Positions 7,878-59,669 of a stretch of DNA of 61,690 nucleotides are shown here, piece after piece. The stretch spans positions 1 to 61,690 of IMG/VR virus record IMGVR_UViG_3300011430_000002; one strand, 5' to 3'. The notes under the pieces were generated by a model, which saw only the letters and a list, made by a program, of their open reading frames with translations, was not told where the DNA came from and did not search any database. A program made the translations under genes and the position numbers. Each line of letters starts with the position of its first letter. The stretch's first letter is position 1. The stretch comes from a virus.

Positions 7878-9731
7878 ATGGTCGTCCAGCCCAACGCCTT
7901 GCGCAATGAACTGGCGCTGGAGATTAAGCGTTGGTATCCCCAGCCGTGGGATGATGCTCTCGCCGCTGCCGACGCGGCGATAGCCGGCATGCTCAATGGC
8001 GAGGCGGCGACACCGGTGGAGCATCACCCGCTGGTCATCTTCATCGCCAACACCTTCATCGTGCCATGGTCATGGGCCTCGGCGGCGTATGCCACCATCC
8101 TGACCGGCGGCGTGGTGGTGCCACCACCCTTGGTCGGCTTCGTCACCGTGTGGCGCACCACGGCGGTCAACGAAACCATCACCCTACCCTTGACGGGTTC
8201 AGGCTACAACGCCACCGTCAACTGGGGTGATGGTACGCCTGACTCGTTGATTACTCTCGGCAATACTGACCCCGCCCGCATCCATGCCTATGCGGTAGCG
8301 GGTGACCATACCGTCACCATCACCGGCACCTTCCCGAAGTTTTTCTTCAACAACGCGGGTGACAAGGCGAAGCTCATCAAGATTTTGAATTGGGGCGCGG
8401 TGGGTTGGGCCAGCGGCGGATTGGTCAGCGCCTTCCATGGTTGCGTCAACCTGAATGAAGTGTCTGCCACCGACTGCGCAAATATGCCGGGAGGTAGCTG
8501 GAACCGGGTGTTCATATCTTGCTCCAGCTTGACAAGCATCAACCTGACTGGCGCCCCCGCTGCCAGCATAACCGTGCTGTCGGACCTGTTGGCCCTTTGC
8601 CCCGCACTGGTCACTGCGGTCCTGCCCGGGCTATGCACGGCAGCTTGCACCTCGTTGGCCCAGACGTTTGGAGGTTGTGTTGCGCTGACCAGTATCGTGG
8701 GTTTGGAGACGTGGATTACTACCAATGTAACCAACATGTCTTCTTTCTTTGCAAGCTGCACCAGTTTACCTGCTGCGGAAGTGGCTAAAGTCGCCGGGTT
8801 TAACACGGCCAAGGTCACTAACTTTGATAAGACTTTCCGCTACATTAACGTGCCCATCCCCGTGGCGACGTGGACTACACCAGCAGCAACCCTCATGCCC
8901 TACATGTTCGGTGATGTGAAACAGGTCAGCGTTAACTCTGCCCACTTTGACATGGGGCTTGTTACCAACGCTACGTTGATGTACCAAGCAACGGCTGGAG
9001 TCAACGGTCTTACTACCGCCCACTACGATGCCATGTTGATTGCATGGGCGGCGCAGTCACCTGACCTGAAACCCGCCGTGCCCTTTACCGCCACCGGGGT
9101 CAAGTTTTCTGCTGGCGCCGCTACCACCGCCCGTGGCGTACTCACCGGTACCCACACGTGGGCCATCACCGACGGTGGCCCCGCTGCCCTGCTGGTGAAT
9201 GACCAGATGCAAGGGCCAGTGGAAGATGTGTCCACCCGCGTGCTCAACGTGGACCCGCTGGGCAATGGCTGGAACGTGCTTACAGGTTCTGCCGATGTGG
9301 GCGAAGGCCAGACCGTGGTTGGCCCCGGTGGCGTGCGGGCGGTCATCAACGCTGGCAGCCCCAACGTCGTCATCACCGCTGTCGTGCAGGCGTTTGCCCC
9401 GGTGGGCCTGATGTTCCGTAGTCGTGTCGGTGGCGTGCGCTCCATGCGCGTGCTACTCAACATGGACGGCACCTTGGAGTTGCAGCGGGTTGGCAACGGC
9501 GGGGCGGTCACCGTGGTCGCCAGCGTGGCTGCCATGCCCGCTGCCGACACCGAAGAACACCACCTGCAGATTTGGGTCGATGCCGCCTCGCGTATCATCG
9601 TCTACTTCGATGGCGTGCCCTTGATTGACGTGGTGGATGCCTACCAGATGAATCGGCCGTGGCACGGCATCCTTGCCGGCCCGGGGGCCGTATACTTGCG
9701 CGAGTTCAGCATTGCTCAATTTCCCTTATGA
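7878..9731 (+). CDS. Tail appendage protein with BspA-like repeats and LamG-like end
   Basis: A 617-residue protein starting at ATG 7878. Residues about 105-150 look like a PKD-type beta domain (ATVNWGDGTPDS; AGDHTVTITGTF). The centre has BspA/DUF285-like surface repeats (TNVTNMSSFFASCTSL; FNTAKVTNFDKTF). The C terminus (LEVQR-type strands, HHLQIWVDAASRIIVYFDG) resembles a LamG/concanavalin sandwich. Such modules mediate binding to surfaces, so this is a good candidate host-recognition protein. The last base of the gene overlaps the start of the homing endonuclease. Confidence 0.8.
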   Translation: MVVQPNALRNELALEIKRWYPQPWDDALAAADAAIAGMLNGEAATPVEHHPLVIFIANTFIVPWSWASAAYATILTGGVVVPPPLVGFVTVWRTTAVNETITLPLTGSGYNATVNWGDGTPDSLITLGNTDPARIHAYAVAGDHTVTITGTFPKFFFNNAGDKAKLIKILNWGAVGWASGGLVSAFHGCVNLNEVSATDCANMPGGSWNRVFISCSSLTSINLTGAPAASITVLSDLLALCPALVTAVLPGLCTAACTSLAQTFGGCVALTSIVGLETWITTNVTNMSSFFASCTSLPAAEVAKVAGFNTAKVTNFDKTFRYINVPIPVATWTTPAATLMPYMFGDVKQVSVNSAHFDMGLVTNATLMYQATAGVNGLTTAHYDAMLIAWAAQSPDLKPAVPFTATGVKFSAGAATTARGVLTGTHTWAITDGGPAALLVNDQMQGPVEDVSTRVLNVDPLGNGWNVLTGSADVGEGQTVVGPGGVRAVINAGSPNVVITAVVQAFAPVGLMFRSRVGGVRSMRVLLNMDGTLELQRVGNGGAVTVVASVAAMPAADTEEHHLQIWVDAASRIIVYFDGVPLIDVVDAYQMNRPWHGILAGPGAVYLREFSIAQFPL

Positions 9732-10303
9732 CCGCCTTAGAAGACATGAAAATGGAACCGATAGAAGTGTGGCGTGATGTGCCGGGGTACGAGGGGCTGT
9801 ACCAAGCCAGTTCTCTGGGTAGGGTGAAGCGCCTTGAGGGTGTTGTCACGTGCCGGGATGGGAAGCTCAAGCCGATACGAGAGCGGGTTTTGCGCCCCGG
9901 TATTCGGGGGGCATACTTGAAAGTGGAACTGTGCGCCAAGGGGATAATTACAAGCCTTTCAGTTCATCGGCTTGTGTGTTCGGCTTTCCATGGTGAGGGG
10001 GCTGAAGGTCACGAGGTCAACCATCGTGATTCGGACAAGCACAACAACGTAGCTGCTAATCTTGAATGGGTCTCCCGACTGGGTAATGTGCGTCACGCTC
10101 ACCTAGCCGGCCGGATGCACGCCACAACCAACCCGGGTCGTGGTGTTAAGCTGTCCCAGTCTGACGTGGATGTGATTCGCGCTGAATCTGCGCGAGGTGT
10201 GATGCGCAAAGACCTCGCCCGCCGTTTCGGTGTGGACCCGTCAATGGTTTCGTCAGTGGTGCTTGGTAAATGTTGGAACCATCCTGCGGAGTACCCCGCA
10301 TGA
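9728..10303 (+). CDS. HNH homing endonuclease (NUMOD4-HNH-HTH)
   Basis: A 191-residue protein. I choose ATG 9728, which overlaps the previous stop as ATGA. The NUMOD4 motif is EVWRDVPGYEGLYQASSLGR. The HNH core has SVHRLVCSAFHG, EVNHRDSDKHNN and NLEWVSRLGN, containing the His and Asn ligands expected for HNH_3. A C-terminal helix-turn-helix (VMRKDLARRFGVDPSMVSSV) would give DNA specificity. Free-standing homing nucleases of this kind insert between phage genes. Both borders are ATGA overlaps, so the insertion is unusually neat. Confidence 0.92.
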   Translation: MTALEDMKMEPIEVWRDVPGYEGLYQASSLGRVKRLEGVVTCRDGKLKPIRERVLRPGIRGAYLKVELCAKGIITSLSVHRLVCSAFHGEGAEGHEVNHRDSDKHNNVAANLEWVSRLGNVRHAHLAGRMHATTNPGRGVKLSQSDVDVIRAESARGVMRKDLARRFGVDPSMVSSVVLGKCWNHPAEYPA

Positions 10304-11745
10304 TAATCCGCCGCTTCTACTTCACCCCACTGCAGATACCCGGTGTGACCAACAACGCGCCGCTGTTGCGCGGCACGCGGGGTTACATCGTCACCGCATA
10401 CTCTTCCAACTCGGTGGCAACCTCGGTGGAAGTGGAGTTGACCAACTGCACCGGCTTGCATCGCGTGGTTACCGAGGACGGGCAGGAGGTTGGCGCGGGC
10501 TATTTTGAAGTCGGTCGTGAATACCTGTTGATTTGGGACCCGGACAAGGAGTGGTTCACCGTGCGGCCGACCTTTGAGCGACTGCAGCGCCTTACAGGCC
10601 GCGTGGTCAGGCTCACCAATCACCCCACGCAGATTTTCACCCGGCTAAGGTTGCATCGCACTGCGCTGGCGTGGACGAAATACCCGGGCATGGCGGTGGC
10701 GGAAACCGAGCGTGCCCACACCAACGTCTCCGAATCGTTGCGGCCCGAGTACCGGCCCACCCGCCTCGCGCTCTACCAGCGGGGCACCTACATTTTCAAG
10801 CTGGAGCCGAGGTACGGTGGCGGGGGCTGGGAGACTTGCCCACCGTTGTTTTACCTTGACCAGAACAACGACGAGCAGCCGTTCACCACCGGTGTGTGGC
10901 GGGACTTGTTTGGCGACTCGCAAGTGGTCAACTCCGGTACGTGGGAGATTTACGCCAAGCTGGCGTTCCCGACCGGCGCGGTTGAGCAGTCGGTGTGGGG
11001 AGTGTGGGACATCACCATTGCCTACCGCGACGAGACCCAGTTACCGGGCGTGCTGTTGCCCAAGGGCACACATCACCAGTTGATACGCTGGTTCGGTGGC
11101 ATGTTCACGCGCAACGCGCCGGCCGGCTTCGGCGTGGTGAACCCCGGCACCATGCCGCTGCAGTTTGCCGACTCGTTGGGCAAGTGGGGCGGCCCCGGTA
11201 TCGTCAGTTGGGCACGCGAACCCGGCGGTGCGGTGGTGCACGAAATAGAATTCCTGACCGGCCCGGGCACGCTGAACTTTGCCACCCCGTTCGATTACGG
11301 TATCTACGACTGGGCGTTCACCTACATGCACAATCAGGATGTGGTGCAGGACGACCGCCCGTGGACCGGTTACGACTTGGGGCCGGGCCACAACCTGATG
11401 CGCGTCACTTTGCTGTCGGGCACGGGCCTCGTCACCCTGACGCGCATGGGTGCACCGTTCCAGTTTGGCCAGTGGGTGGGCGCGGATAACATCGTGATTA
11501 TGCTCAACTCGGTGCTGCCGTCAGTTGAGAGCCTGCTACGCATTGACATCACCTACAACCTTGATGAGCCGGGCAGCATCGACCTTGCCCACCTACGTCC
11601 AGACCTTCTGCACATGCGCTCGCGCCTCGTGCGCATGATTACCGAGGTAGCCCCGGCGGATGCGCCGCCCCCCGACCTGACACCGCCGGAAACGCTGCCC
11701 ACGCAAGATTTGATTCCGTGGCCGCAGAATGACCCGGATGTCTGA
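10300..11745 (+). CDS. Putative tail appendage protein
   Basis: A 481-residue protein starting at ATG 10300, overlapping the endonuclease stop. It is beta-rich throughout ([36 protein letters not shown]) with no signal peptide, and ends in a Pro/Asp-rich tail ([18 protein letters not shown]). Without the endonuclease it would follow the 7878-9731 gene directly. It is probably a virion surface component; no family is recognised. Confidence 0.75.
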
Positions 11746-11750
11746 CGCGC

Positions 11751-13664
11751 ATGTCCAATGAACGCGAGTTCCGTGCCCGCATAGGTGTACTGGAAAGCAC
11801 CGTCAGGAAGATACTGACTGACGGTACCGGTGGTGGCGGTGCGAGTAATTTCCTTGCCTTAACTGATACGCCCGCTTCCTACGCGGGGGAAGGCGGCATG
11901 GTCGTTACCGTCACGTTGGCAGAGGACGGGTTGGAATTTACCGCCGGCGTCCCCGGCCCCGCCGGGCCAGCCGGGGCCACGGGCAGCCAAGGAATTCAGG
12001 GCATCCCCGGGGCGCCGGGCAGCCAAGGACCGCCGGGGCCTACTGGGGCCACGGGTAGCCAAGGAATTCAGGGCGTGCCCGGAAATACCGGGGCCACGGG
12101 CGCCACGGGCAGTCAGGGGCCGCAGGGAATTCAGGGGGTGCCCGGAAATACCGGCGCCACGGGCGCCACGGGCGCCACCGGGCCGGGTGTCGCACCCGGC
12201 GGCACCACCGGTCAGGTGCTGACCAAAATCAACGCCACCGACTACAACACCCAGTGGACAACCCCGGCCGCTGCGGGCACCAACTACTGGACCTTGACCG
12301 GCTCCGAGTTGTACCCAACCGACGCCGCTGCGCAGGTGGTCATCGGCGCAACGGTAGCGGCCCGCAAGCTGCACGTTGTGGGTTCCGCGCAGGAAATTGC
12401 CCGCCTTGAAAGTACCGGCATCACCTCGTCATTCTTGGAGTTTCTCCACGCCGGCGATGCAGCCCTCTGGACCATCGGTAAGACGGCGCTCAACTTCATC
12501 ATCCGCTCCGCAGGTGGCGAGCGTGTCACCGTGTTGCCAACGGGTGAAGTGGGCATTGGTCGCACCGCCCCTAACTCAAGGCTGCACGTTTATGGCGCAG
12601 CGCCAGTCCTGACCATTCAGGATTCGTCCACCGGCCTGTCTACTGCCGCACCTGCCGTGCGGCTGGCAGAAAGCGGCGCCTCGGCGGTGGTGGAAAACTA
12701 CTGGGACCTGATAGCGGACCCCAACGGCGGCAACTTCAGCTTCAAGATTCGCTACAACAGCGCTGACTTGCTGAACGTCTTGAGTACCGGCAACGTCGGC
12801 ATTGGCACCATTACACCCACCCAAAAGCTGGATGTGACCGGTGGCGGTCAGTTTTCCTTGGGCCTCACGGTAGCCGCCCCGGCCGATTTTTGGAACGCCA
12901 ATCTGGGCTTCTTTCACTTGGTTGGCAACACCACCACTCCGCAGGGATGGGTGGGGTCCAACGGCAGCAACCGGGTGGTCATCGGCTCCAATGCCTATCG
13001 CAATGCTTCGTCAGGTACGTCCTACCTTGGTGCTGGTGGCGTAGTCAACAACGGCTCGCAAATGGAGCTTGCGCCCAGCGGCGAAATCTACTTCAAGAAC
13101 GGGCCGGCATCGGGTATCAACCTGACCCAGCGCATGCTGATTGATGCGGCTGGTGCCGTCACAGTCAACAACCTTGCGGGCACCGGTAACCGTTTGGTGC
13201 AGGCCAGTCCAACCGGGGTACTGTCGGCGGCAGCCGCCGTGGCTCCCACTTCCGGCACCTTTGCCACGCCGACCCTTTCCGGCGCATCCGGTGTCACCTA
13301 CACCGGTACCCGTTTCGTCCGTTGGACGCGCTTCGGGGATGTGGTGTTCATCAACGGCCGCGTGCAGTGGTCGGCCATCACCAAGAACGCCACGGCGGCG
13401 GCGATTGCCTGCGGCACCGGGATGCCCCGGCCCGCCTTTGCCAACCCGTTGTCACAGAGCATCAACCTTGGGCGGTCCACGGGGCTTGATGTGACCGCTG
13501 CTGAAATTTCCAACATGTCGTGCATGATGGACAGTTCCGGTTCCACCACGCTGGTGCTGCCTTACGTCATGATGGACAACGACATCCCCGGCCAGTACAC
13601 CTACAATTCCTTCAACTCTGCCGGCTACATTGAGTTTTCTGGCGGCTACTTCACCGACGATTGA
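11751..13664 (+). CDS. Collagen-like tail fibre protein
   Basis: A 637-residue protein starting at ATG 11751. A short N-terminal attachment segment is followed at about residues 65-145 by about 80 residues of Gly-X-Y repeats ([19 protein letters not shown] and similar), which form collagen-type triple helices in phage fibres. The long C-terminal part contains repeated beta units ([37 protein letters not shown]) of the kind found in trimeric fibres, and ends in a head-like domain ([19 protein letters not shown]). It is probably a receptor-binding fibre. Confidence 0.88.
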
Positions 13665-13673
13665 GGATTTACC

Positions 13674-13943
13674 ATGGCCTTACCCATTCCCCCTCAGTAC
13701 CTTGCCAGCGGCATCACCATCCAAACACTGGAGGTTTTTTTCAACCCGGTATGGGACGGGTTGGCTTGGGTGGTGGACCCTGCCAATGTCGAAGCGCGGG
13801 CCACCGTGTTGCTGGTGGATGGCGACCAGCCGGTCATCAGCCAGACCATTGTTTTCCCCTACAATGACCTTGATGCCCCCGGGCAGGCCCAAGTGGATGC
13901 GTTGGAGGATTATTTTGAGCAACGCGCTGCTGACTCGTACTAG
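13674..13943 (+). CDS. Hypothetical small protein
   Basis: An 89-residue protein starting at ATG 13674 behind TTGAGGATTTACC. Its sequence (ITIQTLEVFFNPVWDGLAWV; ARATVLLVDGDQPVISQTIV) suggests a small beta domain followed by an acidic helix. Similar proteins next to phage fibres can be fibre chaperones, but nothing here proves that. Its 3' end overlaps the lipoprotein gene by 29 bases. Confidence 0.7.
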   Translation: MALPIPPQYLASGITIQTLEVFFNPVWDGLAWVVDPANVEARATVLLVDGDQPVISQTIVFPYNDLDAPGQAQVDALEDYFEQRAADSY

Positions 13944-14169
13944 CCTCATCGGGTTGGCGCTGGCCATTCTGGGAGGCTGTGCTATGCTGGGCCGCGACTT
14001 TCAGCGGGTGCACATCGAGAAGAAGTGCGAGGTAACTCTCACCCGTGGGGGCGCAAAATACGGGCAACCTGACAACGAGCATGTTGCACACGTCACCGTT
14101 GGGGATGACTGCACTGTCGATGTCAAAACGCAAGACGAGCAAAACACACCGGAAGCCGAAGGCGGATGA
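13915..14169 (+). CDS. Small lipoprotein (spanin-like candidate), TTG start
   Basis: An 84-residue predicted lipoprotein. The best start is TTG 13915, six bases after GGAGG (13904-13908). The N terminus SNALLTRTSLIGLALAILGGC is a short signal sequence with lipobox ILGGC, so the mature protein would begin at Cys22. The remaining 62 residues are polar with two Cys. Small phage lipoproteins overlapping neighbouring genes are often outer-membrane spanin subunits, but no partner is identified. Other early-lipoprotein roles such as superinfection immunity are possible. Confidence 0.65.
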   Translation: MSNALLTRTSLIGLALAILGGCAMLGRDFQRVHIEKKCEVTLTRGGAKYGQPDNEHVAHVTVGDDCTVDVKTQDEQNTPEAEGG

Positions 14170-14245
14170 AGTGATGGATAACATCGGGTGTGCTCTCATG
14201 CTGACCATGTTCGGGTGCGCCCTGTTGTTCTGGCTACTCAACTGA
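14120..14245 (+). CDS. Very small membrane protein
   Basis: A 41-residue protein from ATG 14120, overlapping the lipoprotein gene in another frame. The N-terminal half is strongly basic (SKRKTSKTHRKPKADE) and the C-terminal half is one membrane helix (IGCALMLTMFGCALLFWLLN). An internal ATG at 14174 would give only the helix. The orientation and size fit a holin, antiholin or spanin-associated peptide, but this is speculative. Confidence 0.4.
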   Translation: MSKRKTSKTHRKPKADEVMDNIGCALMLTMFGCALLFWLLN

Positions 14246-14257
14246 CTGGAGAAGAAA

Positions 14258-14848
14258 ATGGGCGTGATGATTGAACTGACCACCGACCAAGAACTTGCAG
14301 TGCTTGCCTCGTACGGTTATTCCGACGCAGCGCGAGACCCGGCGGCACCCCCGCCACGTGATGACCTTGTGGTCACCGAACAGCCGTTCGATGAGTTTTA
14401 CGGCATCGCCTTTGGCACCCCCCACAACGGCAAGAATCAAGACCTGCCCCCGGCAGTGAATACGGCTGACGGTCTGGTCTCGTGGCGGTTCTACATCGGC
14501 GGGGAACTGGCGGCCAACGCCGGCGTCTCCGACCACGGCGGCGACTTCCACGTGCACACGGTTGCCGACGAGTTGGCAAAGTGGCAGGGCGGTGGTCATG
14601 ACAGCATCCTCGTCAAGATTGACGAAATGGGCTTGGATGATGACGACTTCGCGGTGTTCCCCGAGAACATCGGGCAGGTGCCCTTGTACGGGGTGGCCTA
14701 CGATGGCCGCGACTGGCGGCTGGAAGTGTGGCAGCAGGGCGAGTTGCGTCACGCCATCACCGGCCCCGGTCTGGCCCCGGGTGAGCAGTTCAAGTTCACC
14801 CTCTACCAGTCCGGGTCGAAGCTGGGCATCCAGTACTACTGGAAGTAA
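14258..14848 (+). CDS. Hypothetical protein
   Basis: A 196-residue protein starting at ATG 14258 behind CTGGAGAAGAAA. It is acidic, with mixed strands (VSWRFYIGGELAANAGVSDH; YGVAYDGRDWRLEVWQQGEL), and has no transmembrane segment. I do not see catalytic motifs of lysozymes, amidases or endopeptidases. It lies last in the appendage block. Virion component or accessory protein; function unknown. Confidence 0.75.
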   Translation: MGVMIELTTDQELAVLASYGYSDAARDPAAPPPRDDLVVTEQPFDEFYGIAFGTPHNGKNQDLPPAVNTADGLVSWRFYIGGELAANAGVSDHGGDFHVHTVADELAKWQGGGHDSILVKIDEMGLDDDDFAVFPENIGQVPLYGVAYDGRDWRLEVWQQGELRHAITGPGLAPGEQFKFTLYQSGSKLGIQYYWK

Positions 14849-14853
14849 TCGCC

Positions 14854-15090
14854 ATGACTGAACAGACGCTTGGCGAGTACCGGGTGGGGGTAGACTTCAA
14901 CCCCACCGGCAGCGAGGCGGTGCACAGCATCAAGCACCGGGTGGCTGACCTCATCACCGACATGGAGGCGCTCAAGACCGCTTCCCTGAACATCAACCCG
15001 GAAGTGATTCGCCTTCTGGCGTTGGCGCAGACGGCGTTTGAGGAAGGCGCGATGTGGGCGGTCAAGGCGTTGACCAAGCCGGCACGATGA
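14854..15090 (+). CDS. Acb2/Tad1-type hairpin-domain protein (putative cyclic-nucleotide sponge)
   Basis: A 78-residue protein. The N-terminal EYRVGVDFNPTG leads into a helix (AVHSIKHRVADLI), a second helix, then RLLALAQTAFEEGAMWAVKA, close to what I remember of the phage Acb2/Tad1 hairpin-domain family. Characterised members bind CBASS or Thoeris signal nucleotides and so disarm those defences. That function here is inferred from resemblance. The gene overlaps the next small gene as ATGA and is immediately upstream of the terminase genes. An uncharacterised structural role is the alternative. Confidence 0.6.
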   Translation: MTEQTLGEYRVGVDFNPTGSEAVHSIKHRVADLITDMEALKTASLNINPEVIRLLALAQTAFEEGAMWAVKALTKPAR

Positions 15091-15200
15091 AGGACCAACT
15101 CCCCATCAGTGGGTTGGTGAGGCGCACAATTGCGGTCGTCCTCGCCATCCATGGTGCCCTGCCAACACTGGTGGGGAGTTGCTTTGAGGTGTTCACGTGA
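15087..15200 (+). CDS. 37-residue membrane peptide
   Basis: ATG 15087 overlaps the preceding stop and TGA 15198-15200 overlaps the next GTG start. The chain is MKDQLPISGLVRR followed by one hydrophobic segment (TIAVVLAIHGALPTLVGSCF) and EVFT. Coupling at both ends supports it being translated. It could be a small holin-like or regulatory peptide, or only a coupling relay; nothing distinguishes these. Confidence 0.45.
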   Translation: MKDQLPISGLVRRTIAVVLAIHGALPTLVGSCFEVFT

Positions 15201-16009
15201 GAACCATGCGCGACCCCACCGATGAGTGGCTGATAGCCACCATGGGGGAGCGGGCCAATCCGATGGTCACGCTGCTGGACAAGCTCACCGACCAGCAATA
15301 CCTGTTCTGCGTTGAATACGTGAAGTGTGGTTCCGAGGTCAAAGCCGCCGAGCGAGCCAAGCTGGGCGGCAGTCAGAACCCGCACTTCCTTGTGCACCTG
15401 CCGAAAATCGCCGCCTGCATCAACATCCTCACTGCCAAGCGCGAGGCGGACTTGGGCCAGAAGTCCTCGGCGGAAATCCTCACCCGCTTGGAAAAGACGC
15501 CGTTGCTGGAAGCGGATGACTTTGACTTTTCCGAGGGTACCATCAAGGAACGTGAAAGCCAGCTGGCTGCCAACGGCAAGGCACTGGGCGGTGCGGATGA
15601 CGACGAGTTGGTAACCAACATCAATGGTTCGCTGGCTGATTACGGCATCATGCAACTGCCCAAGGTGCGCGTGTCCAAGGCGCAGAGCTTTGGTCCGCAG
15701 TGGATTATCGAACGGTTCGTCACGGTGGCTGAACGCTGCCTGCAGATTGAACCGGTGTACGACCGCAAAGGACGCCCCATCGGCCAGTTCAGGTTTGAAC
15801 CCGCCGCCGCGCTGAAGGCGCTGGAGATGCTGGGCAAGACCATGGCTATGTTCCGCGACCGGGTGGAGGTCACGCACGAAGTGAGCGGCCTGCTGGAAGA
15901 AGAGTTGGACGCTCGGTTACGCGCCCTCGGCCAGCAGTTCCCCGAGTTCAGGTCTATCATCGAAGCCAAGGCGCTTCCTGCAGTGGCGGTGGGCTTCGAT
16001 GCTGAATGA
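15197..16009 (+). CDS. terS: Terminase small subunit
   Basis: A 270-residue protein starting at GTG 15197 with TTGAGGTG upstream (ATG 15206 is an alternative). The N-terminal helix-turn-helix region is typical of small terminases (LTDQQYLFCVEYVKCGSEVK). The C-terminal half is helical with a conserved-looking core (FEPAAALKALEMLGKTMAMF) for oligomerisation. It recognises phage DNA and feeds the large subunit during packaging. The 3' end overlaps terL by 11 bases. Confidence 0.85.
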   Translation: MRTMRDPTDEWLIATMGERANPMVTLLDKLTDQQYLFCVEYVKCGSEVKAAERAKLGGSQNPHFLVHLPKIAACINILTAKREADLGQKSSAEILTRLEKTPLLEADDFDFSEGTIKERESQLAANGKALGGADDDELVTNINGSLADYGIMQLPKVRVSKAQSFGPQWIIERFVTVAERCLQIEPVYDRKGRPIGQFRFEPAAALKALEMLGKTMAMFRDRVEVTHEVSGLLEEELDARLRALGQQFPEFRSIIEAKALPAVAVGFDAE

Positions 16010-17483
16010 AATTCCCTTTGAAGCTACCAATGCGGAGCTGCCGCAGGATGCACGCTCGGCCAAGGAAGAGCTGTATCGGCTGCTGGAAGAGAAGGCCAAG
16101 CGTAAGCGCGAGTCGAAAATTGACGAGCTGTTCACCGACACCGGCCCCAACTCCCGCGAGAATTACCGCAAGCACATCCAGTTTTTCAACGCCGGCCGCG
16201 ACTACCGCGAGCGAGTCATCTTTGGTGGCAACCGTACGGGCAAGTCGGTAGCCGGCGCGACCGAGGTTTCCTACCACTTAACAGGTCTGTATCCCAACTG
16301 GTGGGCAGGCAAACGCTTCGGCCGGCCGGTGCAGGTATTGGCCTGTGGCAAGGAAGCGAAAATCACCCGCGACACCGTGCAGCAAATCTTGGTCGGCAAG
16401 CCGGATGAATTCGGTACCGGCCTGCTGCCCGGTAACTGTCTGGACCGTGACAAGTGCACCTCTTCCCGCGCCGCCGCTGGCCTGTTTGATGGCGTGCAGG
16501 TGCGGCACGTGTCTGGGGGCTGGTCGATGCTACGGTTTCGTTCCTATGACCAAGGGCGTACCGCCTTTGAGGGTGTGGAACGTGATGTCATCTGGGAAGA
16601 CGAGGAAGCCCCGCAAGACATCCACAACGAAAACATCATGCGCACCATGACCACTGGTGGCATTGTGCTCAACACCTTCACGCCGCTGAAGGGTGAGACG
16701 CCGCTGGTGCGTGACCTGCTGAACCGGGCCAAGGAAGGTACCGTGTTCTCCATCAACGTCTGGTGGGACGACGTAGGCCACATCACCAACGACATGATTG
16801 AGGACATGAAGAAACGCTACCCGAAGCATGAGCTGAGGGCGCGTCGCTTCGGTGAGCCGCAGCTGGGTTCAGGCGCCATTTTCACGGCTGACGAAGACAG
16901 CTATGTAATTCGCGCAGTACCCCTGCCCGACTACTGGCCGCGTGTGTTCGGGCTGGATTTTGGTTGGGTGCACCCCACGGCGGGCGCGTGGCTGGCGCAC
17001 GACCGCGAGACCAACACGATTTACGTGTACTCGGAGCACCGTCGTAGCCAAGCCGAGGTTGCTGTGCACGTGGGCGCCATCAAGGCGCGGGGTGACTGGA
17101 TACCGGGCATTGCTGAAACTGCAGGTACCAATCAGGCTGACGGCAAGCGCATGATTGAACTGTACAAGGGCCACGGCCTGAACTTGCGCAAGGTGGTCAA
17201 AGGCCCGGGCAGCGTGGAGTCGGGCATCATGCGCATCCAAGAACGGTTCAGCAACGGTACGCTGAAAATCATGGATACCTGCCCACAGCTCATCAGCGAA
17301 ATCCGTCGCTACCACCGTGATGAGAAGGGCGCCGTGGTGGAAGAGGCGGACGATTTGATTGACGCTTTACGTTACGGCGAGTCGGGGCTGAAGTACGCCA
17401 AGACCCGGGCTGAGGCGCGGGGTGGTCCAACAGGTGGCAATGTGCGGGAGATTAACTTCTTCCCCAGTCGGAGAATTGCGTGA
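15999..17483 (+). CDS. terL: Terminase large subunit
   Basis: A 494-residue packaging motor. ATPase domain: Walker A FGGNRTGKS (about residues 74-82) and Walker B DVIWEDEEA (about 196-204). Nuclease domain: first Asp in FGLDFGW (about 319) and a later acidic pair in ADDLIDALRYG (about 450). Length is normal for a P22/T7-type large terminase. It cuts concatemeric DNA and pumps it through the portal. The end overlaps the portal start as TGATG. Confidence 0.95.
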   Translation: MLNEIPFEATNAELPQDARSAKEELYRLLEEKAKRKRESKIDELFTDTGPNSRENYRKHIQFFNAGRDYRERVIFGGNRTGKSVAGATEVSYHLTGLYPNWWAGKRFGRPVQVLACGKEAKITRDTVQQILVGKPDEFGTGLLPGNCLDRDKCTSSRAAAGLFDGVQVRHVSGGWSMLRFRSYDQGRTAFEGVERDVIWEDEEAPQDIHNENIMRTMTTGGIVLNTFTPLKGETPLVRDLLNRAKEGTVFSINVWWDDVGHITNDMIEDMKKRYPKHELRARRFGEPQLGSGAIFTADEDSYVIRAVPLPDYWPRVFGLDFGWVHPTAGAWLAHDRETNTIYVYSEHRRSQAEVAVHVGAIKARGDWIPGIAETAGTNQADGKRMIELYKGHGLNLRKVVKGPGSVESGIMRIQERFSNGTLKIMDTCPQLISEIRRYHRDEKGAVVEEADDLIDALRYGESGLKYAKTRAEARGGPTGGNVREINFFPSRRIA

Positions 17484-20044
17484 TGGCCAGCGTGAAAGGG
17501 TTGAAGTCAGCACCGAAGGAATCCAAGGCGAGCAAGGAAGAGCGACTGGAGGCTGACGCCAAGCGCGACGAAATGTTCGCGGCGCTGGAACGGGAGCTGG
17601 ACAAGGAGTTGGGTAAGGCCATTGCCGACAAGTCGCCAGTGGAGATTCGCATGCTGGCCGACGAGGCCCAGTATTGGGGCACCATTGGTGGCTTCGACAA
17701 GGAAGACGTGGTGGCCGGCCATGACCAGCTCACGCGGGCGAACCGGATGCCCACGGATAACAAAACTCGTAGCAAGACTCGCATCGCTGCTTCGCGCATT
17801 GGTGACATGCTGTTTCCGACCAACGCCCCCAACTGGGACATGCGCCCCAGCCCCTACCCCGATGTTCCTATTCCACTGCTGGTGGAGGAGTACCAGAAGC
17901 AGAAGGCGGCCGAGGCTGCTGCAGCCCCGCCAGCGCCCGAGATGCCCCCAGAGGCCATGGGTGGCCAGCCCCCGCCGGAAGCGGGGATGGGTGGCCCGCC
18001 CATGGTCACGGAGGACATGATGGCGATGGGTGGCGGGATGCCCCCACCGGACATGGGCGGCATGATGGCGATGGGTGGTGGGATGGGCGAGATGCCGCCC
18101 GAAGACCCCATGATGGGTGGCGGGATGCCGTCCATGGAAGACTTGGACTACGAACAGCTGGCCATGGAAGTGTCCACCAAGCGTTGCCGCAAGATGCGCC
18201 AGCTTATTCGCGACGCGTTGTCAGAGAACGACTATGCCAAGGTTGGCCGTGCCGTCATCATGGATGGCTGCAAGCTGGGCACCGGCATCGTCAAAGGCCC
18301 CTATGTCCGCTATCGCACCCAGCGCACCTACGAAGAGATAGATGACGGCCAAGGTCCAGTGACGGTGCTGAAGATGCAGCGGGTGGTGGAGCCGGCTGTA
18401 GCGCGGGTCTCGCCGTGGATGTTCTTCCCCCAACGCGCCCGCTGCATAGACGAGTGCGAGCACACCTTCGAATTGCACATCCTCAACCGCATGAAGTTGT
18501 CGCAGATGGTTGAAACGCACGGGTTCTTCCCACGCCAGACTGCCAAGTTGCTGAGCAAGCAACCCACCCTCGGGCAGATTGAGACGGTGCTGGCCCAACG
18601 TGCTGCCATCACCAACTACTCCATGGCGCGGTACGAGAACTGCTATGCGGTGTGGGAGTACCACGGCATTATCGACGCGAAGGTCCTACGCGAGATGGGC
18701 TTTGAAATTCCCGAGGAAGAAGACGCGCTGGACAACCTGCACAACTACATGGGCACCGTGTGGTTCAGTGAGCATGAAGTGCTGCGCATCGACATGGCTC
18801 CACTGGAAGCGCAGGACCGCGTGCCATACCGGGTGTGGAACTACGAAGAGGATGAGACCCACGTTTTCGGTTTCGGCGTGCCGTTCATCATGCGCGATGA
18901 CCAGTACGTTATCGACATGGTGTGGACAGCCATTCTCCATAACACCTCGGTGTCAGCGGGGCCGCAGTTGGCTGTCGAAAAAGGCTGCATGACGCCGGCC
19001 GATGGCAGCTACTCCATCCGTTCGCCCAAGCTCTGGTACAAGAATGACGTGGACGTGCCCATGGCCCAAGCCATGGAAGCCTTCATCGTTCCCAACACGT
19101 TGGGAAACACCATGCCGGTTTACCAGCAGGCGGTGAAGAACGCCGATGACAACACCCTGCTGCCGCACATGCTGGGCACCGGGCAGGCTACCGGGCAGGA
19201 ATCGGGCGCGTCGGGCATGGTGCACATCGCCATGATGAATCAGACCAACATCGTGCAGCGGCAGGCCGCGCACAACTGGGATGACAACATCACCGACCCG
19301 TTGATTACGGCCCTCTACCAGTGGTTCATGGAGTCCGACGACCCGGCGCACGAAGACGCCAAGGGCGACTTCAAGGTGGAGGTGCGTGGCGCTTCCCACC
19401 TGCTGGTCAAGGACACGCAAGCCCAGCACGTTCAGTTGCTCATGCAGATGGCGGCCAGCGACCCCGAGCTGCGCATGGAACTGAACATGAACGACGTGTA
19501 CCGGTTGTACCTGAATTTCTTGGACGTGCCGGTGGAAACGCTGGTCAAGTCGCCAGAGGAAGCGGCGGCTGAGAAGGCCAACCAACAGCCCGACCCCCTG
19601 CAGGAAGCCGAGGTCAACCTGAAGAACGCGCAGGCGCAGGCAGCCACGGCGCGGGCTGAGGCGGATAATTTGCGGGCGCAGGCCATGATGATTGAAGCCC
19701 AGCAGGGCCAGTCCATGGACATTGTTGACCACTCCGAGGTGATGGCGTTGGAGCTGCGCTATGCCGAGATGCGCGACAAGCAAAACGACCGAGATTTGAA
19801 GCTGCAGCTGGCGTTGATTGACCGCGAGACCCGGCTGATGGAGATTGCCAGCAAGGAAGGCATCGCCTATGAGCAAATGAACAAGCAGGTTTCCAGCGAG
19901 CGTGAACAGATGCTGGCCGACCTTCAGGTGACCAACTCCCAGCAGGCCAGCAAGGATTACTTCGATGCTGCCCGGTTGCGTCTGGACCAGTACCGGGAGG
20001 AGTTGAGGACCAAGAACGCCAGCAAGGGGTATGACTCGTTCTGA
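17483..20044 (+). CDS. Portal protein
   Basis: An 853-residue portal; I choose ATG 17483 with GGAG nine bases upstream. Its place directly after terL, large size and core text (KTRSKTRIAASRIGDMLFPT; VSPWMFFPQRARCIDECEHT) fit the long podoviral portals. A remarkable Met/Gly/Pro insertion (about 17909-18135) contains repeats such as MAMGGGMPPPDMGG. The C-terminal 200 residues are a predicted long coiled coil (AEVNLKNAQAQAATARAEAD), as in barrel-forming portals. It forms the 12-fold DNA gateway and nucleates the head. Confidence 0.9.
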   Translation: MASVKGLKSAPKESKASKEERLEADAKRDEMFAALERELDKELGKAIADKSPVEIRMLADEAQYWGTIGGFDKEDVVAGHDQLTRANRMPTDNKTRSKTRIAASRIGDMLFPTNAPNWDMRPSPYPDVPIPLLVEEYQKQKAAEAAAAPPAPEMPPEAMGGQPPPEAGMGGPPMVTEDMMAMGGGMPPPDMGGMMAMGGGMGEMPPEDPMMGGGMPSMEDLDYEQLAMEVSTKRCRKMRQLIRDALSENDYAKVGRAVIMDGCKLGTGIVKGPYVRYRTQRTYEEIDDGQGPVTVLKMQRVVEPAVARVSPWMFFPQRARCIDECEHTFELHILNRMKLSQMVETHGFFPRQTAKLLSKQPTLGQIETVLAQRAAITNYSMARYENCYAVWEYHGIIDAKVLREMGFEIPEEEDALDNLHNYMGTVWFSEHEVLRIDMAPLEAQDRVPYRVWNYEEDETHVFGFGVPFIMRDDQYVIDMVWTAILHNTSVSAGPQLAVEKGCMTPADGSYSIRSPKLWYKNDVDVPMAQAMEAFIVPNTLGNTMPVYQQAVKNADDNTLLPHMLGTGQATGQESGASGMVHIAMMNQTNIVQRQAAHNWDDNITDPLITALYQWFMESDDPAHEDAKGDFKVEVRGASHLLVKDTQAQHVQLLMQMAASDPELRMELNMNDVYRLYLNFLDVPVETLVKSPEEAAAEKANQQPDPLQEAEVNLKNAQAQAATARAEADNLRAQAMMIEAQQGQSMDIVDHSEVMALELRYAEMRDKQNDRDLKLQLALIDRETRLMEIASKEGIAYEQMNKQVSSEREQMLADLQVTNSQQASKDYFDAARLRLDQYREELRTKNASKGYDSF

Positions 20045-20081
20045 CCCCACATGACGGCTGACAACAAGAGGATAAGGTAGT

Positions 20082-20279
20082 ATGCTCGACCGCAATTCGC
20101 CGGCAGTGGCCAAGTTTCTGGACACCATCGACTCAGAAATAACTCGGCTTCACGTGGCCCTTGAACGGATAGGCAAGACCCCCTCGGAGTACGACATTTC
20201 CCGGGGCAAGATAAAGGCATTACGCCAAGTACGAAACATGATTTTAGGTGACGAGGAACCTGATGCCACAGCCGAATAA
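20082..20279 (+). CDS. Small helical protein between portal and scaffold
   Basis: A 65-residue protein starting at ATG 20082 behind AGAGGATAAGG. It is likely all-helical (AVAKFLDTIDSEITRLHVAL; RGKIKALRQVRNMI) and ends acidic. Short proteins at this place in podoviruses can be head-assembly accessories, but there is no direct evidence. Its end overlaps the start of the next gene. Confidence 0.7.
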   Translation: MLDRNSPAVAKFLDTIDSEITRLHVALERIGKTPSEYDISRGKIKALRQVRNMILGDEEPDATAE

Positions 20280-21342
20280 TGCCGCCGCTCGCGACCCTGC
20301 CGAGGGAGTGGTACCCGAGGACGAAAGTTTCCTGTCCGACGAGGACATGTTTGAACAGGCGTTCAACGACAAGTACGGGCCTGACAACGGTGGGGAAGAG
20401 AACCCCGGGGATGAACCCGGTCAGCCTGAGTACGGCGCTCCACCGGAAGGTGGTCAAGAGCAGCCCGCTCCTGAAACCCCCCCAGCCCAAGCACCCACGG
20501 CCGCAGTAGCTGCGGAACCTGAATGGGTGAAGAATCTTCCTGATGAGGCCAAGGCCCATCTCAATCAGGTAGCCAACGAATTAACCAACCTACGTGGACA
20601 GTACACAGCTCTCCACGGCAGGCTGGCTCCAGTCCAACAGGAAAATGCCCGACTTCGCGGGCGGCTTACAGCGACGGCAGTACCGGCGCAGCAACCCGCA
20701 CAAGGCGCGAACTCGGGTAACGCCCAAGTTGGTCAGTCACCGCCGGGTGCTTTCAAGTTAGCGGATGTCGCGGAATTCAAGGAATTCCAAGACGCGTTCC
20801 CTGACGAAGCCAAGGCACTTGAAGCGGTGTTTGCACGTCAGACCCAGAACCTCACCTACTTGCAGCGGCAACTGGAGGGGGTTTCGCGGGGGTTGCAGGA
20901 AGTACAGCAGTCTTCTTTCAGCCAGAGACGGACGCAGGAATTGGCCCGGTTGTCGGATGCACACCCCGACTGGGCCACGGTACGCCCATCACGAGAATTC
21001 GCCGATTGGCTGCAGGCGCAGCCGGCTGAGATTGCTCAGTTCGCCGACTCTCCACGGGCCGACCACTGCATCTGGGTTCTGGACCGATACAAGGCTGATG
21101 CCTACATAGCCCAGCAGTTTTCCCAAGGGGGAGACTTGCAGCAACCCCAGCCCGGGATTGACGTTGCGCAGCAGACGCGGGTGCGCCGGCAACAGATTCG
21201 TTCCGCCCCTTCCTTGGACCCACAGCAAGCTGGTATTGGTGCCCCCAACGGGGACCCCGGCCAGTTCATGTCGGAAGAGGAAATCTGGAACGCGGAAGTT
21301 GAGAGACGGCTACGCCTGCAACGTGAGTCCAACCGTCGATAA
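20263..21342 (+). CDS. Putative scaffold protein
   Basis: A 359-residue protein; ATG 20263 sits six bases after GAGGAA (a GTG at 20248 would add five residues). It has an acidic N terminus (EDESFLSDEDMFEQAFNDKY), a long Pro/Gln-rich linker (residues about 50-90), a helical coiled-coil-like centre (DEAKAHLNQVANELTNLRGQ) and a basic C terminus (NAEVERRLRLQRESNRR). That is a classic scaffold layout: rod with a basic, coat-binding tail. It directly precedes the capsid gene. Confidence 0.8.
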   Translation: MPQPNNAAARDPAEGVVPEDESFLSDEDMFEQAFNDKYGPDNGGEENPGDEPGQPEYGAPPEGGQEQPAPETPPAQAPTAAVAAEPEWVKNLPDEAKAHLNQVANELTNLRGQYTALHGRLAPVQQENARLRGRLTATAVPAQQPAQGANSGNAQVGQSPPGAFKLADVAEFKEFQDAFPDEAKALEAVFARQTQNLTYLQRQLEGVSRGLQEVQQSSFSQRRTQELARLSDAHPDWATVRPSREFADWLQAQPAEIAQFADSPRADHCIWVLDRYKADAYIAQQFSQGGDLQQPQPGIDVAQQTRVRRQQIRSAPSLDPQQAGIGAPNGDPGQFMSEEEIWNAEVERRLRLQRESNRR

Positions 21343-21357
21343 TGGAGGAATAGGCAG

Positions 21358-22422
21358 ATGCCTACCTTAGCAAGACATTATGGCGGCACAGGCAACTACG
21401 GCGGTGCGCTGACTGGCCCGGGTAACCGTACGAATGTCTATGCCGAACTTGACCTTCTGGAACGTGCACGGCCCCAGCTGGTGCTGGACCTCGCATGCGA
21501 CAAGAAGAACATCCCTGCCAACAAGGCGGAAACCATCGCGTTCCGTCGTGCGGTCAACGCCATCGTCAGCACCACCACGGTGACCGAAGGTGTGACTCCG
21601 GCGTCCCGCGCTGTCGCCTACGAAGACGTGTTCGGCACCCTCGGTGAGTACGTCGAGGTCTACGAAATCACGTCCCGCATGCGCGAACTGGGTGAAGACA
21701 ACGCAATCCGCGATTCTTCCGACGTGCTTGGCGACCTCGTTGCCAACATCAAGGAAGCGGTGGGCTGGGCTGCCTTCATACAGGGAGCGAACGTCATCTA
21801 CTCTGGCGGCGTTGCGTCTCGCGCCACGGTGTTGGCGCCTATCTCCCTTGGCGACTTGCAGGAAGCGGTGCGTTCCCTGCTGGCTGCGAAGGCGATGCGT
21901 TACACCACGGTGGACCATGGTGGTCTGAACGAGAACACCTACCCCATCGAAGCGGCGTTTTACGCGTTCACCCACACCGACATGCACCCGGACATTCGCA
22001 TGCTGCCGGGCTTCCGCACCACAGCGGAGTACGGCGCGAAGAAAATCGTGTCCGAGTACGAGTTCGGTGCCATTGAAAACCTGCGTGTCATCACCACGCC
22101 CCAGCTGACGCCGCTCATCAATGCGGGCGCGGCGCTGGCCGGCGCGAACGTGAAGTCCACGGGTGGTGCGAACGCGGACGTGTACCTGATGATTGTGTGC
22201 GGTCAGCACGCATTGGGTACGGTGGACCTGAAGGGCGCGGGCAAGAAGGGCTATGGCGGCACAAAAATCAATGTGCTGACCGGCGCTTCGAAGTCCGACC
22301 CGGCCGACCAGCGGGCGTACGTGTCCTGCCGGTGGTGGGACCTCAAGCTCATCCTGAACGATGAGTGGGTGGTCCGACTGGAAGTGGCCTGCACGGACGA
22401 CCTGAGCCAGTTGTACGTCTGA
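21358..22422 (+). CDS. Major capsid protein, N4-gp56 type
   Basis: A 354-residue coat protein starting at ATG 21358 behind ATGGAGGAATAGGCAG. The stretch VNAIVSTTTVTEGVTPAS (about residues 66-84), with the TEGVTP signature, is typical of the N4-gp56 family of HK97-fold capsid proteins. The following segment (EYVEVYEITSRMRELGEDNA) supports this. A strong terminator lies 22 bases after the stop, as is common for highly expressed capsid genes. It forms the icosahedral shell. Confidence 0.93.
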   Translation: MPTLARHYGGTGNYGGALTGPGNRTNVYAELDLLERARPQLVLDLACDKKNIPANKAETIAFRRAVNAIVSTTTVTEGVTPASRAVAYEDVFGTLGEYVEVYEITSRMRELGEDNAIRDSSDVLGDLVANIKEAVGWAAFIQGANVIYSGGVASRATVLAPISLGDLQEAVRSLLAAKAMRYTTVDHGGLNENTYPIEAAFYAFTHTDMHPDIRMLPGFRTTAEYGAKKIVSEYEFGAIENLRVITTPQLTPLINAGAALAGANVKSTGGANADVYLMIVCGQHALGTVDLKGAGKKGYGGTKINVLTGASKSDPADQRAYVSCRWWDLKLILNDEWVVRLEVACTDDLSQLYV

Positions 22423-31572: not shown

Positions 31573-34500
31573 GTGGCCGACCCACTTTCCAACTATGGCT
31601 CGTATGCACTGCCCGATTTTTCGGACCTGTTGTTCAGTGCGGCCGAGGACACGGGCTTGGATACGGACCTGCTGGCCTCGGTCATGGAAGCCGAAAGCTC
31701 GTTCAATCCCCGAGCTGTTTCCAGTGCGGGTGCCCGTGGCCTCATGCAACTCATGCCGGATACGGCTGGCCAGCCGGGTTTCGGTGTGGAAAAGTTCGAC
31801 CCCGACTTGCCGCTGGATGACCCAACGGAAAATGTTCGCGTTGGTTCTCAGTACCTGAAGGGTCTGCTCAATGCGTTCAACGGTGACCTTGACGCCGCGT
31901 TGGTAGCCTACAACTGGGGTCCGGGTAAAGCCCAGAAGTGGGTGGCCAACGGCTCTGATTTTTCCAAGCTCCCCGCTGCAACGCGCAAGTACGTGAACGA
32001 CATCAAGGGCAAGGTCGCGGCGCGGAAGCAGGCGGCCGGTACCACCCCCGCCGGTGCTTCCACCTACCAGCCCTTGGACCCGTGGGCGGATGTTTCTGCA
32101 ACGGGTGCCGTGGATACGGCGCCCGTGTCAGGGTCAGTCGCCGTGGACCAGCGTAGGGCTGACATTGCTGAGCGGCGTGCGGCCTTCAACGAGCGTTTGC
32201 AGCGGGACCCGGAAGCGGCCCGGCTGAATCTGCCCACGGAAGAAGGCGACGAAGAGGAACCCATTGGCGCCGGCCAGTGGCTCAAGGACCAAGGCGAGTG
32301 GGCGGCCAAGGCGTTGTACTCCAGCGTGGTGGACCTCGGGTCTTTGCTGGCTGACCTCGCTGACTTCGGGATGGGACCCGACAGCGGCCTTACCGACCGG
32401 GTGTCAGCGAAGCTGGAGAACCACGCCAACCGGGTTCGCCAGTCCCTGCCCGATTACATCCGCAAGGACTTGGCCAACGAACTCATCACCACGGATGCAA
32501 ACGGCGAGCTGGACTTCCACATGCCGAATTTGCGGCAGGTGGCCAACCTCGTGTTTGAGTCCGCCGCTCCGTCCGGGGCAATTGTTGGTGGTGGCAAGGC
32601 GCTGCTCAAGGGCGCGATGACCATCAACAAGCTGAAGAAGGTCATCAAGGCGTCACCCGGCGTGTCCAACGCCCTTGCCTTGGGCACCGCCAACAGCGCC
32701 TATGTCACGGCCGACACCTACACCACGGTGTACGACGACGTGAAGGAACAGGCCCAGCGCGAGGGCAAGTCGCTCAAGCAAGCCAGCGACGAAGCGGCGC
32801 GTGCGGCGTCATTGGCGGCCGGAATTATTGCCCCCTTGTCGTTCGCCACCGGCGCGGCTGGCGAGGGGTTGGCAGCGACCGGGGCCACCGTCTACCGTAG
32901 GCTGGCCAAGGGCTTGGCCTATGGCTCCATCACTGAAGCGCCCGAGGAATCCGGCCAGTACGTGGCCGAGGAACTGGGACGCGGCAAGTCGCTGGCGGAA
33001 ATCGACAAGGGCAAAGCCTTGGAAGCGGGTCTGCTTGGTGCCCTTGGCGCCGGCCCGACTGAAGGCGTGCTGGCTGCGCTGTCTGGCGACACGGGTGCGC
33101 CGGCTCCGGTGGATGATGTTCCACGTGAAACACCATCCGGCCGCATGGAACAGTTGGAACTGTTCCCGAATCTCCCTATCGACCAGTTGCCAACGCTGCC
33201 CGGTGAGCCGCCCGCTGGCCCGCCCCCCGGCGCACCGCCCTTCAATCTGGAAGGTCCCAGCACCATGGAGCAGCTGGAGCTGCCCCTGATGCCGCTGGAC
33301 CTGCAGGGTCCGCAGGGTCCGCAGGGTCCGCAAGGTCCGCCGGAACAACTGGAGCTGCCCTTCCCGACCCCGCCGAATCCAGCCATCGCCGCCGGCGTTG
33401 CCGACATGGAACAGGCGTTGGATGCGGACCCCAACTTGCCCAACGCAGCGGACGCGCTGAACGCGCCGTCCCCGGAACAGTTGGGTATGTTCGCTCGTGC
33501 CCGGGCGAAGTTGGATATAGAGCGGCGGGACGATGAGGATGAAGTAGGCGCCACGCCAGAATTTCTGGAGTTGGGTGAGCAGGACGAGGACCAGTTGTGG
33601 GAAGACCAGCAGGCGCTGATGAAGAACAGCGCCTTTGAGGCGGGCCTGTCCATCGTGCCCAAGGAAACGCTGGCTTCGCTTCCCAACGTGTCGGTACGGG
33701 ACGCGGAGGAAATCGACCGTAGGTTGCGGCCGACCATGCCCGACCCCGAGTTGCGCTCGTTGGTGGTTGAGCAGCAGCTGGAGGTGCTCTCGGAATATCG
33801 CGGCGAGTTCCCCAACGCGACCCTTGACGAAGCGTTGGGAGCGCCCCGCGCCACTGGCTCCTTGTCGGAAACGGAGGTTGAGCCTGAGTTTGAAATTCTG
33901 ACCGACCAGTTCGGTGAGCAGGAAGAACCCCCGCAGCCCCTTGAAGTGGGGGAACTGGCCCCAGTTGTTGACCTTGTGCAAGCTCGGGCACGGGCGCAGG
34001 CGGGGGAATCGCGTAGTGAGGAAGTTGGCTCTACACCCAGCCCGGATACGGGCACGCCTACTGAAAAAGTCCATGACGAGCAGCAGGCAAGAGAAGACTA
34101 CATGCGGGTTCGGGCGCGTTTGAATCCTGATTCCCTGCATGTCCTTGATAACCTGACTGCGAACGAAGTTCTGGCTATGGTGCAGAGGGAATGGGCTACG
34201 CAGGGTCAGTCTGGTAATCCGCGTAATCCCGCTGCTGTCTATCGGGCTGTCGCCGCACGGTTAAACGCTGCCGCTGCACGGGTAAACAAGGCCGCCACGG
34301 CGAAGCCGGCCGAGAAGCCGGCGAAATGGGACCCGCTCACGGATGACGGGTTCGCGCAGGAGATTATCGACGACGAGGGCGGGGCGGGGATGCGCCTGCT
34401 CAACGCTGGTTACACGGAAGAGCAAGCCGACGAGGTAATCACCAAGGTGATGTCGCGCTTTGTCGGTCGTAGGCTGCAGGAAGCCCGTGAGGATGGTACC

Positions 34501-57977: not shown

Positions 57978-59597
57978 TTAAGTCAATTTCTCCATCGGCA
58001 ATTCAGCCACCACACCGAAGCCCATCTGGTTGCACTTCACGGTGAAGTGCTCGGTGCATGACCAACCCAAGTCACCCAGCGCCCATATCAGGGGCATCCG
58101 GCGCAGCTTGGTGTTCCAGAAAGCGAAGCACTCGTCTACTTGCATGTCATCCACGCCACCATCGGTGAGGTAGGTCATGCAGGCAGCATCGGGGTAATCA
58201 TCGGCGACACGTTGGAAGGCAGGCATGAACTCGGTACCACCACCAACACGCCGAATCCTACGGTCTAACTTGCCAAGGTCGGACTTGGTGTACTCGAACA
58301 CACCCTCTTGCGGGATGCCATCGCTGCACCAGATAACCACGGCACGTTGGAACATGGCCAACCTTAATGCGTTCTCCATTTCAAAGAAGAAGTAATCCAC
58401 CATCGGGCCACTCGTGCTTCCCGACGAGTCGATAATGAACACTACCGTTCCCAACTCCTTGCCAACGGGGCCGGGGTACATTGCACCTTGCGACGTGCGG
58501 CGCTTGGTGCTCGGACGTGAGTACGTGTAGGACCCTGCCCTCATGTTGGCATTGGCATAGCGATTCAACTGCCGGTCCCAGCGGTGCCGTGCCTTGTACA
58601 CCATGGCGCCCAGCTCCCCGGTGAACGGGTCGCTACCTTCCACGCCTTCGCCACGGCTACGCATGGGTGCGGCCATCCGTTCGGCGTTGGCAGCGGCGGC
58701 AATGTTGTTCAGCTCCATGCTGTGCAGCTGCTCATCGGTAAGCGGGGTGTCGATGTCGCCCTTGTATTCATCGGGCAACACGATGTCGGTACCAGCGCCG
58801 GCTTGGGAATTCTCGGGTTGGGTCAGGTCACGCTCGCCTTCACCCTTGCCCTTGCCCTTGCCCTCGCCCTTGTCAGCGTCACCAGCGTCATCGGCCGGGT
58901 CATCCCCATCCTCGCCCTCATCGGCGCCGTCACCCTCGCCCTCGCCCTTGGCCTTCTGTTCTTCATCCTTGTCCTCATCATCGGCGTCGTTCGCTTCCGG
59001 CTTGTCGCCAGCGTCTGCCTTGTCTGCCTTCGGCTTGTCAGACTTGCCCCCACTGCCACCCTCACACGGGGGCTGGGTACCAGCAGGCGGCTGCGAGGTC
59101 GGCTTCTGCAGTTCCTTCTTTACCAACTCGTCGGCAATCGCTTCGGTGGTGTACTTGTCCGGGGAATACCGGGCGTCGTACATCCAGTCGTCGCGAATGT
59201 TCAGGCGCCACTCATGCTTGAGCATGTAGTTGATGAAGTAGTCCTGCGCTTGGTTGAAGAAGTACAGCAGCTGCCTACGAGTGAGCCTCGTGTGCTGGTA
59301 CCTGCGCACCCACCGCTCATAGCGGGGGAAGAAGTTCAGGAACTTGTGATACACCTCGTGCACCAGCGCCGACACGCAGTCATCAACGCTGGACTCGGCG
59401 AAGTACGTGGGTGCGTACCAGATTTTCCTCACGCAATCGGTGGCTGCGGTTTTCACCTTCTCGTCAGGGATAATCTCCATCTCCATCATGTACATGGCGA
59501 CGGTGCAGTAGCGGGGGTCCCGCAACATGCGGTGCACGGCACGCTGGAAGTTGTTCACTTCCACCGGTACAGCAGCGGCATAAATGTTGGTGAACAT
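57978..59597 (-). CDS. Metallopeptidase-like (HExxH) and VWA domain protein
   Basis: A 539-residue protein of the COG3864/DUF2201 type; I choose ATG 59597, eight bases after GAGG (ATG 59603 is also possible). The N-terminal domain has ALVHEVYHKFLNFF, an HExxH zinc-peptidase motif near residue 76. A long Lys/Glu/Asp/Gly linker (about residues 180-260) follows. The C-terminal VWA domain has the metal-binding motif VVFIIDSSGSTSG (near 386). MoxR ATPases and such VWA proteins normally operate as pairs, and the ATPase gene is two genes upstream. The substrate is unknown. Confidence 0.85.
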   Translation of the reverse strand: MFTNIYAAAVPVEVNNFQRAVHRMLRDPRYCTVAMYMMEMEIIPDEKVKTAATDCVRKIWYAPTYFAESSVDDCVSALVHEVYHKFLNFFPRYERWVRRYQHTRLTRRQLLYFFNQAQDYFINYMLKHEWRLNIRDDWMYDARYSPDKYTTEAIADELVKKELQKPTSQPPAGTQPPCEGGSGGKSDKPKADKADAGDKPEANDADDEDKDEEQKAKGEGEGDGADEGEDGDDPADDAGDADKGEGKGKGKGEGERDLTQPENSQAGAGTDIVLPDEYKGDIDTPLTDEQLHSMELNNIAAAANAERMAAPMRSRGEGVEGSDPFTGELGAMVYKARHRWDRQLNRYANANMRAGSYTYSRPSTKRRTSQGAMYPGPVGKELGTVVFIIDSSGSTSGPMVDYFFFEMENALRLAMFQRAVVIWCSDGIPQEGVFEYTKSDLGKLDRRIRRVGGGTEFMPAFQRVADDYPDAACMTYLTDGGVDDMQVDECFAFWNTKLRRMPLIWALGDLGWSCTEHFTVKCNQMGFGVVAELPMEKLT

Positions 59598-59669
59598 GTG
59601 CATTTCCTCGGTCAGTTGCGCCCGCCCCATGGCGGGCGCTTGGTCGGTGGTGGTCAGGTGGAACGTGCT

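Follow-up and report, generated by a model that had tools for sequence, protein, structure and literature searches.

A putative cyclic-oligonucleotide sponge of the Acb2/Tad1 hairpin family encoded beside the terminase genes of an IMG/VR viral contig

The IMG/VR virus record IMGVR_UViG_3300011430_000002, analysed here over its positions 1 to 61,690 (61,690 nucleotides; the window), carries on its plus strand a gene for a 78-residue Acb2/Tad1-hairpin protein and putative cyclic-oligonucleotide sponge (14854-15090; recognized by its open reading frame (ORF), PF24729, PHROG 717 and an AlphaFold2 model). The ORF, read from the window sequence, starts with ATG and stops with TGA, and both its coordinates and its residues are exactly those quoted in the original prediction, which had been made from the DNA letters alone. 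Its start lies 5 bp after the stop of the upstream gene (14258-14848), and a Shine-Dalgarno-like GGAAG (14841-14845, plus strand) can be read 8 bases 5' of the ATG, within the end of that upstream gene. The stop of the sponge gene is overlapped, by ATGA, by a plus-strand ORF of 37 codons (15087-15200; translation MKDQLPISGLVRRTIAVVLAIHGALPTLVGSCFEVFT), which extends to the terminase start, has no Pfam match and possibly encodes a small translationally coupled hydrophobic peptide. As had been predicted, the gene sits next to the terminase genes, the small subunit (15197-16009; PF03592) and the large subunit (15999-17483; PF03237, PF17289) being directly downstream, followed by a portal-like gene (17480-20044; PHROG 332, 'head-tail adaptor').

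The tested members of the Acb2/Tad1 hairpin family soak up the alarm nucleotides that bacteria make on infection. That the window protein belongs to this family, as originally proposed, finds support in its Pfam and PHROG matches, in profile-profile comparison and in the topology of the structural model. Residues 16-75 match PF24729 (Acb2/Tad1, hairpin domain) with 41.4 bits, against a curated Pfam cut-off of 27 bits, and all 22 of the aligned members, T4-type Acb2 among them, match this domain too. PHROG 717 is matched by the window protein (E = 9.9e-8) as well as by the T4-type protein (E = 5.6e-32), and it is from this group that the Vs.4 structure paper took its Vs.4 homologues (PMC10097602). 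A comparison by hhalign with an alignment of the T4 and Pseudomonas p26 Acb2 proteins gave 95.3% (E = 2.4e-8). A profile of 12 relatives that held no T4-type sequence ranked Vs.4 (PDB code: 7uq2) second in the PDB (E = 0.0044) and found the Tad1 chains at E about 0.11, while p26 Acb2 was not recovered by it. A 7uq2 match at 1.9e-15 is not counted as evidence, the profile behind it having included the T4-type sequence. The top PDB match of the 12-relative profile, the designed TIM barrel 7mcd, was discarded, its four repeats each scoring at chance level. PADLOC returned no match, as expected of a library that covers host defences.

The AlphaFold2 model, built from 12 sequences, has a predicted local distance difference test score (pLDDT) of 95.6 and comprises helices at residues 6-11, 21-43 and 49-74. 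The helical hairpin foreseen in the original prediction is thus present in the model, formed by the two long helices, and the layout of a short helix plus a hairpin is that published for Acb2. When the model was compared by Foldseek with the viral models of BFVD, the first two matches were annotated Acb2/Tad1 hairpin proteins (E = 1.5e-4 and 3e-3; template modelling (TM) scores 0.80 and 0.71). These, the UniProt 'Acb2/Tad1 hairpin domain-containing' entries A0A6J5LWM4 and A0A411AWH0, have the same predicted fold and 36-39% identity, show no marked difference from the window protein and are both known from domain annotation only. The fold and the family are already in Pfam and UniProt, and the window protein is another member.

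A first point of comparison is T4 Vs.4/Acb2, which holds cyclic GMP-AMP (cGAMP) by stacking between Y8 and F82 and by polar contacts of Y8, H11, K23 and R79, and which forms a hexamer through L29, A66, A73 and A77 (PMC10097602). Residue conservation was counted over 108 distinct relatives of the window protein. By alignment with T4, K27 (codon 14932-14934, plus strand) corresponds to K23 and K71 (codon 15064-15066, plus strand) to R79; each is Lys in 107 of the 108, the remaining sequence having a gap there. An FNP motif near the N terminus (codons 14896-14904, plus strand) is common to the relatives, with F15 and N16 each kept in 106 and P17 in 101. F15 is the probable counterpart of Y8, a pairing reached by carrying each protein's Pfam alignment one residue further. 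The hexamer positions correspond to L33, A58, G65 and A69, and stay Leu or small in the relatives (L33 in 98, A58 in 105, Ala or Gly at 65 in 105 and A69 in 106 relatives). T60, which corresponds to T68 of T4 Acb2, where the change T68M weakens binding (PMC12657230), is Thr in 101. The two proteins have in common PF24729, PHROG 717, the short helix plus hairpin, the basic K23/R79 positions, the small residues at the hexamer interface and an MW(A) motif. The window protein differs in its shorter loop between the long helices, in the additional FNP, R53 and E63 motif residues, and in having F15, T18 and T74 for Y8, H11 and F82.

We consider it likely that the window protein is an Acb2-like sponge for the nucleotides of the cyclic-oligonucleotide-based antiphage signalling system (CBASS). 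Its protomers, each of one short helix and an antiparallel helical hairpin, would form a compact oligomer, probably hexameric like the Acb2 proteins of T4 and Pseudomonas phages, with inter-protomer pockets lined by F15, K27 and K71. Cyclic dinucleotides, cyclic trinucleotides or both, as produced by the CBASS enzymes of the host, would be bound in these pockets, and because the signal would be held rather than cut, the CBASS effectors would not be triggered and the host would be spared death before phage maturation. We infer the sponge activity, which is probable, from the relatives; the oligomeric state, the identity of the ligand, CBASS as the target and the timing of expression are put forward in the same conditional sense.

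Several observations weigh against this proposal. The pairing of F15 with Y8 depends on an uncertain register, in which Y9 could take the place of F15, and if the pairing is right, Phe in place of Tyr loses the hydroxyl of a residue that makes polar contacts. H11 is replaced by T18 and the stacking F82 by T74. The hhalign profile comparison spans the hairpin only, the N-terminal helix lying outside it. No PDB entry reached significance in a Foldseek search, and 7uq2 was not among the 50 matches listed; the structural comparison proposed in the original prediction thus came out among the viral models and not in the PDB, and as small helical hairpins score poorly in Foldseek searches, the PDB result is not taken as strong evidence against the assignment. 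With the single sequence, phmmer returned from the PDB only a methanol dehydrogenase of no relevance (E = 1.3), from which it follows that the sequence is far from the best-known members. The original prediction had also called it clearly unlike them, and the identity to T4-type Acb2 is indeed 30%.

The loss of the T4 residues F82 and H11 could also be read as the mark of a degenerate or repurposed hairpin in which nucleotide binding has been lost. Two lines of evidence make this hardly credible. Across the 108 sequences, the positions that correspond to the ligand and interface residues hardly vary, which argues for ongoing selection. In addition, the Acb2 of the Pseudomonas phages PaP2/PaMx33 (p26; PDB code: 8h2j), read from the alignment, has Ala at the F82 position and binds cGAMP (PMC12043709), so that loss of F82 does not abolish function. 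Among the relatives, 97 have Thr and 10 have Phe at position 74. The window protein and p26 are of similar size and layout, both have the Lys and the basic C-terminal position, and neither has the F82 aromatic; at about 27% identity, they differ in that p26 retains the Tyr and has no MW motif.

A third point of comparison is Tad1, known from SBSphiJ7 and Clostridium botulinum (PDB code: 7uav), with which the window protein shares the hairpin domain. SBSphiJ7 Tad1 is an experimentally shown anti-Thoeris sponge (PMC12043709). The spacing RxxxxAxTxxExxxMWxxK is identical in it and in the window protein, the motif RxxxxAxTxxExxxMW is found in the last helix of 99 of the 108 relatives, the full motif is missing from T4 Acb2 and p26, and hhalign against Tad1 gave 74.3% (E = 2.7e-5). 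All this would suit a sponge of the same fold tuned to TIR-derived glycocyclic ADP-ribose (gcADPR), hence directed against Thoeris, or to another nucleotide signal than those of CBASS. The window protein, however, with 78 residues against 142 in SBSphiJ7 Tad1, lacks the long C-terminal tail and the N-terminal antiparallel beta-sheet domain (beta1-beta4), since its model is all-helical and the domain has no counterpart in the alignment. The Tad1 pocket is described as built largely from these missing parts (PMC12043709). As the N-terminal domain is absent, gcADPR binding is less likely than binding of CBASS nucleotides, and we regard such a specificity as unlikely. The combination of a missing Tad1 beta-domain with a present Tad1 helix motif places the FNP branch between Acb2 and Tad1. 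In a tree built from the short domain, the tested Acb2 proteins fall in one group (99/97) and the tested Tad1 proteins in another (100/100), with the FNP type spread between them; most branches of this tree are unresolved, and it supports only that the tested Acb2 proteins group apart from the window protein.

Relatives are widespread, occurring in phages that are not related to one another and in bacterial genomes. A single-sequence search found 17 loci, and a profile combined with the conserved pattern [AG]AMWAVK confirmed 545 relatives in IMG/VR viral contigs. A further 31 were found on contigs of bacterial genome assemblies from Pseudomonadota and Bacteroidota, among them Paracoccus, Defluviimonas, Bradyrhizobium, Dyadobacter, Spirosoma and Endozoicomonas. 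Cultured phages contribute 156 matching records, mostly of Flavobacterium but including EcP1, DSL-LC05 and Providencia phages, and the relatives among the matches listed are annotated as hypothetical proteins. Megablast of window positions 9000-22000 against cultured phages gave no match.

The position of the gene between structural genes and the terminase invites the view that it encodes a head or packaging accessory protein, such as a terminase cofactor, that merely contains a helical hairpin. Pfam scans of the neighbours of the relatives (a terminase/portal search driven by the seed was too narrow for counting) do find terminase or portal genes adjoining in L004 (TerL and portal), L007 (portal), L012 (Terminase_3) and L100, and a GpA terminase in L006. 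Other relatives, however, adjoin a DNA polymerase (L010), methyltransferases (L013, L024) or, in the L026-type relatives (9-11 loci), SNF2-type helicase and DUF927/primase-like genes; the adjoining terminases belong to differing families (Terminase_6, Terminase_3, GpA), and ligand complexes have been solved for the family to which the protein belongs. A packaging role is accordingly very unlikely. Conserved synteny with the terminase was considered and rejected because the neighbours vary so widely, and, not being conserved in the FNP branch, the terminase adjacency in the window carries little meaning. The variable neighbourhood speaks against a packaging part and fits mobile accessory anti-defence cargo, as would be expected of the Acb2-like sponge proposed here.

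Two further arrangements were seen among the relatives. A cassette recurs in L026, L039, L046, L052, L060, L061, L074, L075 and L094, in the order SNF2-type helicase, a protein of 130-150 residues, a helix-turn-helix protein of about 100 residues, the hairpin sponge, a protein of about 310 residues and a DUF927/primase-like protein, which places the sponge within a replication-like module. The uncultured Rhodobacteraceae assembly CATOSB01 has related hairpin genes on seven contigs (L128-L134), which suggests a multicopy prophage, a transposable phage or several strains assembled together.

As to the rest of the window, an exact direct repeat of 123 bp occupies positions 1-123 and 61568-61690, and such identical ends mean that the contig probably holds the genome in full, with either a terminal repeat or a circular overlap. 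Upstream of the terminase lie genes for a DUF285 (BspA-like) repeat protein (7878-9731) and a collagen-repeat protein (11751-13664), both likely fibre or surface-binding proteins, and a homing-endonuclease-like gene with NUMOD4 and HNH_3 domains (9659-10303) is placed between two tail or fibre-like genes. The largest ORF of the genome, of 2900 residues (31573-40275), belongs to the structural block. In the minus-strand block, the gene at 57978-59630 encodes a protein that has a putative metallopeptidase domain (DUF2201, N-terminal) together with a VWA-like domain and that looks unusual for a phage.

The literature describes Acb2 as a relatively rare protein, confined to particular groups of phages (PMC11722364). 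The occurrence of the FNP branch in more than 500 viral contigs, and in bacterial contigs as well, suggests that hairpin sponges are far commoner in uncultured phages. The interest of the branch lies in this breadth, in a pocket that differs from those of the tested sponges and in the Tad1-like motif; no test of any of the three was found in the literature covered. As a tentative suggestion, somewhat doubtful as it stands, the FNP-type hairpins could be a large, distinct clade of sponges of environmental phages and prophages that joins the size of Acb2 to the helix motif of Tad1 and could keep a form ancestral to both, and whose rebuilt pocket, with Phe for Tyr and Thr for Phe, could hold signals differing from those of either. 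The protein is small and easy to assay, which makes the sponge prediction directly testable. Defences of the Panoptes type are triggered by Acb2 (PMC12657218), and if it is true that the window protein sequesters cyclic dinucleotides, it would be expected to trip such defences too.
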